Positions 56,441-60,817 of a stretch of 64,000 nt of DNA are shown in pieces. The notes beneath the pieces are model-generated. The model had not been told where the DNA came from, searched no databases, and saw only the letters and a program-made list of their open reading frames with translations. The first letter of the stretch is position 1, and every line of letters starts with the position of its first letter. The position numbers were made by a program, and so were the translations under genes. This DNA comes from Limnothrix sp. FACHB-406. Its GTDB lineage: Bacteria; Cyanobacteriota; Cyanobacteriia; CACIAM-69d. The stretch covers positions 1 to 64,000 of the forward strand of contig NZ_JACJSP010000017.1 of assembly GCF_014698235.1 (NCBI RefSeq), given 5' to 3'.

Positions 56441-56655
56441 AGGGTTAATCAACAGTTGGTAGAGTGGTTACGAGCAATCAACGGCCACCAAAGCCGCCTT
56501 GGCCTTGCCCAGTGGGGTTCAAGGCTTGGGAATCAACAGCATAGGCCCGATCGCCCCAGCACAATCGCCATTGGGTGTCTGTATTTTGGCCGGTTGTGCC
56601 CAAGGAAAACACGATTGGTGACCGCCTGGCCAGTTGTCTATTCAGGAGCGTGGGG

Positions 56656-58479
56656 ATGAGCGAAGCAGCGGTGCGACCGGCCAAAATTACGCGAGTGTTG
56701 CCTGGATCAATTGCCCAGGAGGTGGGGTTTGAAGTGGGCGATCGGTTGGTGGCCATCAATGGCCAAAAACCCCGAGATTTGATTGATTACAACTTCCTCT
56801 GTGCCGATGAGGTGTTGGAGTTGGAAGTGTTGGATCAGCACGATCGCACCCACCTGGTTGAAATTGAAAAGGACTATGACGACGAGTTGGGCTTGGAATT
56901 TGAGGCGGCCCTGTTTGATGGACTGATTCAGTGCAATAACCGCTGTCCCTTTTGTTTTATTGATCAGCAGCCACCCGGTAAACGCGCATCGCTTTATTAC
57001 AAAGATGATGATTATCGGTTGAGTTTTCTCTATGGCTCCTATCTCACCCTCACCAATTTGACGCAGCGGGAATGGGATCGCATCGAGCGGCTGCGGTTGT
57101 CGCCTTTGTTTGTTTCGGTGCATTCCACGGAGCCAGAGGTGCGATCGCGCCTGCTGAAAAATCCTCGGGCGGGCGAGATCATGAACCAGTTAGCTTGGTT
57201 TCGCGATCGGCGCTTGCAAATCCATGCTCAAGTGGTGCTCTGTCCTGGCATTAATGATGGGGTGCATTTGGAGCGAACCATTCATGATTTGGCCGGCTTT
57301 TATGGATCGCCTGCGGGCCAAGCCGGGCCCAGTCGGCGGGCTATGCCGGCCCTGGCTGACCAAGCCGCGATCGGGGGTGGCTGGGCCATTTCCGAAAATG
57401 TGACGTTGTTGGCGGGGCGATCGCCTGGGGCCGATTTGGGGGCGATCGAATCTGAGCGCGATCGGGTGGCGGTGATCGATCGCCTCGACGGTTCAGAAGC
57501 GGCAGAGTCGGATCTGTCTGACCCAAATGTTGTTAATCCGAATGTTGTCGATCCAGATGTTTTCGATCCAAATGTGTTCGATCCGCGATCGCAGCCCATG
57601 GGCTTGACGGATTGGGATTCAGAGGAAGATCAGGCCGATGGGGATGATCAGTGGGATGGGGCCGATGGGTTCGATCGGGCCGCTTGGGATGATCAAGACC
57701 CCAACGAGCTAGACGATGATCTAGATGGCGACCAAGACGAAGTGGAACCCCATCGCCCAACGGTCACCTCCGTGGCGATCGTGCCAGCGGGGCTAACGCA
57801 ATTCCGCCCGGCCGATGATGAGCTACAGCCCGTTACCCCCGCCAAAGCCTGCGAAGTTATTGCCCAGGTGCGATCGCTCCAACAAACCTTTCGCCAAACC
57901 CTCGGTTCCACCTTTGTTTGGTTAGCCGATGAGTGGTTTCTGATTGCGGGTCAGGATTTGCCGGAAATGGTCGAGTACGAAGATTTTCCGCAAATCGACA
58001 ACGGCGTGGGTTCCATTCGGCTGTTTGTGGATCAGTTTGAGCGGGCCCTGGCGGCGAACCCGGTGCGTGCAACTCCGTTTCCCCGTCGCCTCACCTGGGT
58101 GGTGGGGAACACGGTGGAGCGGCCCTTCAGTGGTTTGGTGCGCCAGCTCAATCAAATTTCGGGGCTAACGGTGCAGTTGGCGGCCCTAAATTCAGATTAT
58201 TGGGGCCAAACCATGACCGTTACCGGCTTGCTGACGGGCCAGGATTTGGTGCAAAAGTTGGCGTGCCAAGATTTGGGGGATGCGTTGCTGCTGCCGTCGT
58301 TGATGTTACGCCATGGTGAACAGCGCTTTTTGGACGATATGACGGTGCAGGAGGTGAGCGATCGGCTGCAAGTCCCGATCGTGATTGTCACCAGTGCTGA
58401 AGCGGTGATTGAACAAGCGGTGGCCGCCGCTTGGCCCCAAGCGATCGCCCCCCAAGCGCCCAGTGATTTGCTGGCGTAG
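56656..58479 (+). CDS. PDZ / radical SAM / DUF512 protein (TIGR03279-type) with acidic insertion
   Basis: The start ATG 56656 follows AGGAG by seven bases; the protein is 607 residues. Order: a PDZ-like domain (ITRVLPGSIAQEVGFEVGDR, about 8-45), a radical SAM core with CNNRCPFC (CX3CX2C, residues 97-104), a large insertion at about 217-366, and a DUF512 domain (IVPAGLTQFRPADDEL onward). The insertion is rich in Asp, Ser and Pro, contains a 15-bp repeat (VDPDVFDPNVFDP-like), and is absent in typical members, where LARF-type sequence continues directly to SVAIVPAG. The function of this cyanobacterial family is unknown. Confidence 0.9.
   Translation: MSEAAVRPAKITRVLPGSIAQEVGFEVGDRLVAINGQKPRDLIDYNFLCADEVLELEVLDQHDRTHLVEIEKDYDDELGLEFEAALFDGLIQCNNRCPFCFIDQQPPGKRASLYYKDDDYRLSFLYGSYLTLTNLTQREWDRIERLRLSPLFVSVHSTEPEVRSRLLKNPRAGEIMNQLAWFRDRRLQIHAQVVLCPGINDGVHLERTIHDLAGFYGSPAGQAGPSRRAMPALADQAAIGGGWAISENVTLLAGRSPGADLGAIESERDRVAVIDRLDGSEAAESDLSDPNVVNPNVVDPDVFDPNVFDPRSQPMGLTDWDSEEDQADGDDQWDGADGFDRAAWDDQDPNELDDDLDGDQDEVEPHRPTVTSVAIVPAGLTQFRPADDELQPVTPAKACEVIAQVRSLQQTFRQTLGSTFVWLADEWFLIAGQDLPEMVEYEDFPQIDNGVGSIRLFVDQFERALAANPVRATPFPRRLTWVVGNTVERPFSGLVRQLNQISGLTVQLAALNSDYWGQTMTVTGLLTGQDLVQKLACQDLGDALLLPSLMLRHGEQRFLDDMTVQEVSDRLQVPIVIVTSAEAVIEQAVAAAWPQAIAPQAPSDLLA
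57523..57582. repeat. 15-bp tandem array, four units, in the radical SAM/DUF512 gene
   Basis: CCAAATGTTGTTAAT, CCGAATGTTGTCGAT, CCAGATGTTTTCGAT and CCAAATGTGTTCGAT lie head to tail inside the acidic insertion and give a PNVVN/PNVVD/PDVFD/PNVFD peptide repeat. Confidence 0.9.
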
Positions 58480-58825
58480 GAGTTTGGGGACTCGGGGGAG
58501 CGAGCCGGCCGATTCTGTAGGCCAGCCGCTAGACTAACCAGTATGCTTTTTGAGGCACAACCTCGATTCGATCCTGGGTCGATTCTCAGTTTGATCTCAG
58601 TTCGATCGAGTATCCACTGCGCAAGGCCATCCAACCGACGCTGGCAACCCCCACAGGGAGTAATCAATCCCTGAACTTTCGGGCCCCGAACTTTCGGGAG
58701 TTGGCAGCGTCTGCTGGTGACGATGCGAGCAATAGGCGAGTAATTGAGTAATTTACGAACTTTGCACCAGTGGCAGCCGTCAAAACAGCCGGTTTTAGGC
58801 GTGAGGAGCGAAGCAAGTTTTGGTT
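58480..58825. other. Spacer upstream of the TolC-type gene
   Basis: This 346-base spacer contains no gene. A 15-bp tandem duplication (58673-58702) is the only clear structure. The promoter of the TolC-type gene is presumably here; no confident consensus is visible. Confidence 0.5.
58673..58702. repeat. 15-bp tandem duplication
   Basis: GAACTTTCGGGCCCC and GAACTTTCGGGAGTT are adjacent (58673-58687, 58688-58702), with 11 identical leading bases. Confidence 0.85.
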
Positions 58826-60817
58826 ATGAAGATTGCCCATCGAGCGATCGCCACGGGTTTAGGGGTTACCGTCGCGTTGTGTTGTCTGTGGGCGGATGCC
58901 GCCCGCGCCGAGTCGGTGGAAGCGGATGCGGCCGCCACCTTGGCTGAAGCTGATCATGTCATAGCCGACAAGTCCCCTACTTCGCCACCGGATTCAGCCG
59001 CCGCGACTGGTTCGGAATCTGCTGAATCCGCTGAATCGCCTCATTTGCCTGTTAATTCGCTGAATTTGCCTAAGCCAGCTAAACCGGCCAAACCGGCTGT
59101 GGGTGTGGTGGCCACCGCAGTTCCGATCGCTGCCGAGCGTCATCAGGAGCCGATCGCCCAAGAATCAGCCAGCCAAGAGCAAGCCAGCCAAGAGCAAGCC
59201 GGTCAAGAGCAAGCGCTTGCAGCAGCCTCCCCCAGGGCCGACGCTTTCGAGTCGATCGGGGGAGACTCAGCTCCCGTGGCCCAGGCGAATGATAGTTCCA
59301 GTAATCCCGATCCGTTCGGAAATGTGCCCTCAGCGCCTGGTTCCTTGGGCGATCGGCCTGAAGGCAACACAGAAGCGGATGAGCTGGTGATCCAACGGCT
59401 GGAATCTGACCCAAACCCGCTGCAATTTCCCACCCTGCCGGAAGAAGTGCGGATCTTGCTGACCCAGCCGATTACCCTTGAGCAGGCCCTAGAAATTGGC
59501 CGTCGCAATAACCGAGACCTGCGCCAGGCCTACCTCAGCATCGAAAGCAGCCGGGCCCAACTGCGCCAGGCGATCGCCGCCAACTATCCCCAATTGCGGT
59601 TTTCCTCTTCCCTCTCGGATTCGCTCACGGCCGGCAGTCGTTTGAACCTGTTGTTGCAAAACCGGACCGCTCGCCGTCTCGGCAATTTTGGGGGCCAGGT
59701 GGACATTGACACCCAAGATCAGTTCACCTGGAGCAGCGCTCTGGAACTGAGCTACAACATCTACACTTCGGGACTGCGGCCCGCGAACATTGCCGCCGCC
59801 CAAGCCCAGTTGCGAGCCACTGAGTTGTCCCTCGAAGCCACCTTTGAGGATTTGCGGCGCGACATCACCGATAGCTACTACCGGCTACAGCAGGAAAACG
59901 AGCAGCTCAAAATTGACCAATCGGCGGTCAAGTTTCGGGAGCAAAGCGTGAAGGATGCCCAAGCTTTGGAAAAGGCTGGGTTGGGAACGCGGTTTGAGGT
60001 GCTGCAAGCGGAAGTGGAATTGGCCAACGATCGCCAGTTGGTGGTGCAAACGCGCGATCGACAAACCCAGCGCCGCCGAGAACTGGCCCGGCTGTTGAGC
60101 TTGCCGGAGGCGATCGACATCCAAACCGCTGACCCGATCGCCAAGGCGGGTGAATGGACGCTGCCCCTCGAAGACAGCATCGTGTTGGCCTATCGCAACC
60201 GGGCAGAAATTGAACAGCAACTGGCCCAGCGAGAACTGAACAGCGCCCAACGGCGGGCCCGGTTGTCTCAGTTGGGGCCCCAGCTCAGTGCCTTTGCTCG
60301 CTATGAGTTGCTGGATGTGATTCAGCCCGATGACGACTTCAGCTTGGTCAGCGGCTATTCCACGGGCTTGCAGTTGCAATGGACGCTGTTTGATGGCGGA
60401 GCGGCGCGGGCCCAGGCGCGTCAGGAGTCGGTGGCGATCGAGCAGGCCGAAAACGGTGTGGGTCGGGCGCGCGATCGAATTCGGTTTGAAGTGGAAGTGG
60501 CCTACTCCAACCTGCAAGCCAACGCCGAAAACATTCAAACTTCCCTCAAGGCGATCGAGTCAGCCCAAGAGGAAGTGCGCTTGGCGCGGCTCCGGTTCCA
60601 GGCCGGCGTGGGCACACAGACCGATCGACTCAACGCAGAAACCCGCCTTACCCGGGCGCGGGGTAACGTGCTGATTGCGATTATTGGCTACAACCGCGCG
60701 TTGGCCGCCCTCAACCGTGCCGTCAGCAACCTGCCGCCGGGTACGATTCAACCGGTTCCGGAACCGATTCAACTGCCTGAACTGGTCGATGCACCGACGG
60801 GCCCTGCTACTCCGTAG
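58826..60817 (+). CDS. TolC-family outer membrane efflux protein
   Basis: From ATG 58826 the protein is 663 residues. A signal peptide (MKIAHRAIATGLGVTVALCC, cut near AARA) is followed by a low-complexity region of about 170 residues rich in A/S/E/Q/P with a 15-bp repeat (SQEQA units), then two OEP repeats (about 205-390 and 400-630) with TLEQALEIGRRNNRDLRQAY, SLEATFEDLRRDITDSYYRL and GVGTQTDRLNAETRLTRARG. It forms the outer membrane channel of export systems, and could work with the MacA-like adaptor at 5.5-6.8 kb, though the two are not linked. Confidence 0.92.
   Translation: MKIAHRAIATGLGVTVALCCLWADAARAESVEADAAATLAEADHVIADKSPTSPPDSAAATGSESAESAESPHLPVNSLNLPKPAKPAKPAVGVVATAVPIAAERHQEPIAQESASQEQASQEQAGQEQALAAASPRADAFESIGGDSAPVAQANDSSSNPDPFGNVPSAPGSLGDRPEGNTEADELVIQRLESDPNPLQFPTLPEEVRILLTQPITLEQALEIGRRNNRDLRQAYLSIESSRAQLRQAIAANYPQLRFSSSLSDSLTAGSRLNLLLQNRTARRLGNFGGQVDIDTQDQFTWSSALELSYNIYTSGLRPANIAAAQAQLRATELSLEATFEDLRRDITDSYYRLQQENEQLKIDQSAVKFREQSVKDAQALEKAGLGTRFEVLQAEVELANDRQLVVQTRDRQTQRRRELARLLSLPEAIDIQTADPIAKAGEWTLPLEDSIVLAYRNRAEIEQQLAQRELNSAQRRARLSQLGPQLSAFARYELLDVIQPDDDFSLVSGYSTGLQLQWTLFDGGAARAQARQESVAIEQAENGVGRARDRIRFEVEVAYSNLQANAENIQTSLKAIESAQEEVRLARLRFQAGVGTQTDRLNAETRLTRARGNVLIAIIGYNRALAALNRAVSNLPPGTIQPVPEPIQLPELVDAPTGPATP
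59171..59215. repeat. 15-bp tandem array, three units, in the TolC-type gene
   Basis: AGCCAAGAGCAAGCC occurs twice perfectly and once as GGTCAAGAGCAAGCG, encoding a repeated (A/G)QEQ(A) segment in the periplasmic low-complexity region. Confidence 0.92.

Follow-up and report, generated by a model that had tools for sequence, protein, structure and literature searches.

The closest described enzymes to the protein considered here are csDUF512 of Clostridium sporogenes (structure 9cg1) and Mmp10 (7qbs-7qbv). In the excerpted text of PMC11659888, DUF512 was shown to be a cobalamin-binding domain, the radical-SAM domain of csDUF512 covers residues 81-266, and the middle Asp of its DDD motif ligates the cluster. 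According to the same excerpts, Mmp10 shares a DUF512-like cobalamin domain, its known substrate is an arginine of methyl-coenzyme M reductase, and it has a fuller barrel where enzymes of the csDUF512 type have a barrel completed by the PDZ domain. The TIGR03279 family (cyano_FeS_chp) has the same whole core of PDZ, radical-SAM and DUF512 domains as the Limnothrix protein; a literature search found no publication on TIGR03279 by name. In-frame coding tandem repeats that produce disordered segments are a general phenomenon, as described in excerpts of PMC7230257 and PMC12871928. No work on tandem repeats together with acidic disorder in cyanobacteria was found in the literature search.

The window, i.e., the whole stretch of 64,000 nucleotides from Limnothrix sp. 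FACHB-406 that was analysed, contains one such gene at 56656..58479 on the forward strand. It starts with ATG and codes for 607 aa plus a stop, without internal stops; an upstream GTG at 56575 in the same frame would add 27 aa. The gene is present as a single copy in its own genome. In a profile search, the protein scored 710.4 bits against TIGR03279, summed over two stretches, and thereby passed the curated cut-off (574.7 bits). The match is split in two within one frame, profile positions 1-207 corresponding to 56683-57303 and positions 199-432 to 57718-58422. The domains follow the family order, namely a PDZ_6 match at residues 11-58 (56686..56829, +, 43.8 bits), a Radical_SAM_2 match at residues 72-216 (56869..57303, +) and a DUF512 match at residues 376-579 (57781..58392, +, 245 bits), a cobalamin-binding domain by homology. 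Within the Radical_SAM_2 match, the CX3CX2C cluster motif reads CNNRCPFC (56932-56955, +) with C93, C97 and C100, and KDDDYR (57001-57018, +) holds D117-D119, which align to the DDD motif of csDUF512. Both sets of residues are invariant in 52 aligned proteins. The carboxylate-binding loop of the PDZ domain (hydrophobic-Gly-hydrophobic) is also present, L78-G79-L80 being aligned to L72-G73-I74 of csDUF512. Strong constraint on the core and the intact motifs rule out a pseudogene. Judged from its sequence, the Limnothrix protein is an otherwise ordinary TIGR03279 enzyme with a functional-looking core. Upstream of the family gene and in the same orientation, a gene with a QGLTEFLPISSAH-like motif, presumably the motif of undecaprenyl-diphosphate phosphatase, was seen in 26 of 80 loci (L033-L112).

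The particularity of the protein is an insert of 150 aa (residues 217-366, 57304..57753, +), which takes the place of the usual 3-residue xG[D/E] turn. The first-pass annotation had placed an in-frame insert at these residues of an apparently functional gene, and this holds: the frame is kept, no stop interrupts it and the core motifs are intact. It had also assumed that the flanking parts join directly in typical members; the core is indeed interrupted, but a 3-residue turn is found there instead of a direct join. Of the proposed Ser/Asp/Pro-rich composition only Asp stands, and the insert is better called Asp/Ala/Gly-rich, because D 29, A 18 and G 15 lead the 150 residues, ahead of P 12, S 10 and E 10. 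Two halves can be distinguished. The first (residues 217-284, 57304..57507, +) is near-neutral, with 15% acidic residues and a net charge of -4, and holds the motif GGWAISEN (57376-57399, +). The second (residues 285-366, 57508..57753, +) contains 35% D/E and has a net charge of -27. The 15-bp coding repeat and the DDDLDGDQDE run reported earlier were both recovered, the former as an in-frame tandem array at 57523..57584 (+; 4.1 copies, 82% match) coding for PNV(V/F)(D/N)-type units, the latter as residues 353-362. When all 37 stop-free frames of at least 250 codons in the window were scanned, 66 of 15189 segments of 82 aa had a net charge of -20 or lower, and all 66 lie in the TIGR03279 gene. 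Hence, chance acidity is ruled out, no other such frame in the window being as acidic.

The first-pass annotation had suggested a cation-binding loop, with which the 35% Asp/Glu of the second half would agree. Acid content alone is no sign of specific binding, however, and the insert has no match in Pfam at E values up to 10; the suggestion gains no support from this search and is very improbable. A mobile protein element or a captured domain, such as an intein or a transposon-derived segment, might produce an in-frame insert of this size at a single, exactly defined site. Nevertheless, the insert matched no Pfam family, 72,556 plasmid records gave no hit, no intein splicing blocks were seen by eye, and the sole other match in the genome (E 4.9e-4, 50% identity over 40 residues) lies in a frame with two stops. 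Lacking a family, a plasmid match and a real second genomic copy, this origin is ruled out, and its probability is negligible.

The insert is absent from nearly all TIGR03279 members to which the protein was aligned, as the first-pass annotation had proposed to check; they carry the 3-residue turn, so the insert conserved across many cyanobacteria that would have spoken against its reading was not found. Counted between query residues 216 and 367, the junction has exactly 3 residues, mostly xG[D/E], in 102 of 119 measured loci, which include duplicates of the same genes, and 150 in the window. Four loci (L001, L002, L113, L114) were set aside before the count, and two were dropped for one missing half (L050, L120). 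L075 has a junction length of 0, and its translation holds a stop. The short turn after the CPGIND helix is a length feature of most members and not part of the curated TIGR03279 definition. By genome, the family was found in 334 of the 388 genomes of the class (150 + 179 + 5 readable Limnothrix-family genomes), of which 330 are readable at the junction, after exclusion of G005, G292, G346 and G376 with matches that do not cover it. At least 30 extra residues were found in 7 of the 330 readable genomes. Five of them, the window's genome (G000) and G001 to G004, represent all readable genomes of the Limnothrix family (5/5), with inserts of about 120-150 residues; in the sixth genome of the family, G005, the contig ends before the insert. 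The other two, G008 and G061, belong elsewhere and carry acidic repeat inserts of 54 and 48 aa, respectively, at the same turn. The turn has 3 residues in G032, a family-mate of G008, and in G015, a genus-mate of G061; therefore, the inserts of G008 and G061 are separate and recent. Smaller junctions of 22 and 7 residues were measured in G059 and G026.

In six genomes of family f13, genus g82 (G147, G175, G209, G235, G324, G358), the match exceeds its profile stretch by about 20-23 codons, and the junction was not read. In two loci with likewise longer matches (L118, L119), the turn has 3 aa and the extra residues lie elsewhere. A second draw of the class yielded mostly the same genomes; for the new ones (G388 to G432), the summary table showed no large split at the junction, with coordinates listed for a minority of them. 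In G122 (L116), an insert near reference residues 262-271 consists of two copies of a NPPLSRGGEDLNPILATEGDS-like unit and is not acidic-aromatic. The listed genomes of families f17 and f23 had no TIGR03279 match, which suggests loss in whole families; 34 further genomes without a match lay outside the listing.

In the alignment to 9cg1, query residue 216 corresponds to chain residue 210 and query residue 368 to chain residue 211, and the entire insert falls between them. Given a radical-SAM domain of residues 81-266, the insert therefore lies within this domain and not between the radical-SAM and cobalamin domains. An AlphaFold2 model was obtained from 52 sequences, with a mean pLDDT of 60.9 and 9cg1 as its best fold match (E 9.5e-33). 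It has a helix at 203-213, an unstructured segment at 218-364 with pLDDT of about 22-33, and a strand at 370-378. Because the PDZ and cluster-loop region is modelled poorly too, the model served for this local order of helix, insert and strand alone. The disorder put forward in the first-pass annotation is thus predicted as well, as no secondary structure appears across the insert, although low pLDDT is weak evidence of disorder because only two alignment rows contain the insert. A charge-hydropathy plot puts the first half on the side of folded sequences and the second half on that of disordered ones. Altogether, the insert is a predicted unstructured loop. In such barrels, helix-to-strand turns sit on the side opposite the active site. 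From barrel geometry, and not from coordinates, the insert-bearing turn should thus face away from the cluster, SAM and cobalamin. Conserved post-strand motifs flank the insert, CPGIND (196-201) before it and GLTxFRP (379-385) after it, and their placement fits such a rear-face position.

The periodicity of the insert was matched by none of 500 codon shuffles, whereas the core parts, taken as a comparison, had their own periodicity matched in 104/300 and 48/300. It is weaker in the first half (7/500) and modest in the insert of G003 (3/500); the slices taken for G003 and G008 missed the exact ends by between one and a few codons. Each of the seven insert-bearing genes contains tandem repeats whose unit length is a multiple of 3: 15 bp in the window, G001 and G002, 12 and 15 bp in G003, 12 and 24 bp in G004, 12 and 24 bp in G008 (DFGENFSE-like), and 15 and 30 bp in G061 (YSDxD-like). 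The inserts of the window and of G001 differ in length by one whole 15-bp unit and one 3-bp codon, the kind of difference between close strains that the first-pass annotation had expected from repeat growth. In G002, the frame shifts just after the 15-bp repeats (L006:2392-2450), which splits the radical-SAM part from DUF512; this genome is a MAG, in which assembly error and real mutation are indistinguishable. Growth by repeats, as originally proposed for the insert, seems to account for it partly: it fits the acidic second half, and less so the near-neutral first half with its weaker periodicity and a W-A motif found across the genera of the family. Repeats are also present nearby. The downstream gene for a TolC-type outer membrane protein (58820-60817) has its own 15-bp in-frame array of SQEQA units at 59158-59214, with a copy number that differs between the window and G001. 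Moreover, at 58669-58698, 3' of the TIGR03279 gene, CCCCGAACTTTCGGG occurs twice head-to-tail, as it does in G001.

In the comparison with G001 (Limnothrix sp. CACIAM 69d), the genus-mate and closest relative of the window's strain, dN/dS was 0.244 in the insert, against 0.013 in the part before it (residues 1-216) and 0.048 in the part after it (residues 367-607). These values come from a single species pair and from a simple method that takes no account of transition bias. Within the insert, 22/331 nonsynonymous and 25/104 synonymous sites have changed, so nonsynonymous change is the rarer of the two per site (Fisher p 4.9e-6). Nonsynonymous change is much commoner in the insert than in the core (p 3.5e-10), and synonymous change is also somewhat higher (p 0.022). 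With a dN/dS of about 0.24, the insert looks weakly constrained, and its Asp/Asn-rich codons could lower this value without selection. An assembly artefact in the window is ruled out, since G001 keeps the insert in frame despite about 22 nonsynonymous and 25 synonymous changes.

Within the family, W and A are invariant in the four aligned inserts (window, G001, G003, G004), and the insert of G002 reads GGWAISDN. From these sequences, the W-A motif is likely a shared ancestral motif. Shuffle tests of the first halves gave mixed results. The score was matched in 0/2000 shuffles for G003/G004, 5/2000 for G002/G003 and 38/2000 for the window/G004, while G002/G004 (215/2000) and the window/G003 (419/2000) were no better than shuffles. 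A common origin of the family inserts is thus not proven by sequence comparison.

These data bear on the question whether the loop does anything at all. It could be a functionless passenger, grown by repeats at a tolerant acidic turn and simply never removed. Its length and sequence change fast, with a dN about ten-fold or more above that of the core, a frame change lies inside the repeat tract of G002, and almost all cyanobacteria live without the loop. The acidity need not be selected either: in the ancestral junction, the helix ends in an aromatic residue and x-G-acid comes next, so copies of it would themselves be acid-aromatic. However, dN/dS stays under 1 in the insert, the four aligned inserts all retain W and A, with the same WA in G002, and about 120 or more residues persist in 5/5 readable genomes of the family. 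A purely neutral loop is therefore a tentative alternative that we hold to be rather unlikely.

At the other extreme, the acid-aromatic loop could be a selected module that docks a partner or substrate protein, which would explain its repeated origins. Inserts of at least 48 aa at this turn, from three lineages, are all acidic, with 26-32% D/E and net charges of -14 to -34 in six inserts (G002 was left out owing to its frame change). Moreover, aromatics often adjoin acids in the turn inserts, which is not so in the inserts elsewhere in the protein (G122, G133, G268). Yet only three origins are clear, the turn was acidic and next to an aromatic residue from the start, and the ORFs around eight loci differ from one another by eye. 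To our knowledge, no partner has been identified. A dedicated binding module is accordingly improbable. A related and broader proposal is likewise doubtful, namely that acid-aromatic disordered loops grow at this turn again and again, having arisen three or more times by duplication of the turn itself, and were selected as docking or regulatory tails.

The explanation that we favour, and consider fairly probable, is a disordered surface loop that sits in a helix-to-strand turn of the radical-SAM barrel, owes part of its length to the in-frame duplication of repeats and is weakly constrained. On the barrel face away from the cluster, SAM and cobalamin, extra residues would do little harm. The already acidic turn may have been lengthened by in-frame duplication of units of 12, 15 or 24 bp, through slippage or unequal recombination, and an enlarged loop may already have existed in the ancestor of the Limnothrix family. 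Weak selection at the protein level would now keep it as an acidic solubilising or docking tail, in which the W-A segment might serve as a short binding motif. We infer at most a modest role in solubility or docking; catalysis is probably unaffected.

The states before and after the growth of a disordered insert are both visible in this family: 3 residues in nearly all cyanobacteria, 48 aa with 15-bp repeats in one species as against 3 in its genus-mate, and 120-150 aa throughout the Limnothrix family. The insert alone does not reveal the substrate of the TIGR03279 enzyme. It shows, nonetheless, at which site a radical-SAM/DUF512 enzyme can accommodate large additions, a point useful for tagging or engineering.

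Compared with the known systems, the protein is a known enzyme in a variant form that is specific to one clade and has grown by repeats; acidic loops arose at this turn in three or more lineages. It shares the three-domain order, the cluster cysteines and the DDD motif with csDUF512, with LGL in place of LGI in the PDZ carboxylate loop; csDUF512 lacks the insert, its chain residues 210 and 211 being adjacent. Mmp10 is a distant match by sequence (E 8.2e-4) and by fold (E 2.6e-5). While nearly all TIGR03279 members have the 3-aa turn, the Limnothrix protein has its 150-aa insert near profile position 207. Units divisible by 3, predicted disorder, length variation and one relative with a frame change are common to this case and to coding tandem repeats in general. 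In contrast to that general phenomenon, growth here has taken place more than once at exactly the same turn, within a single enzyme family.
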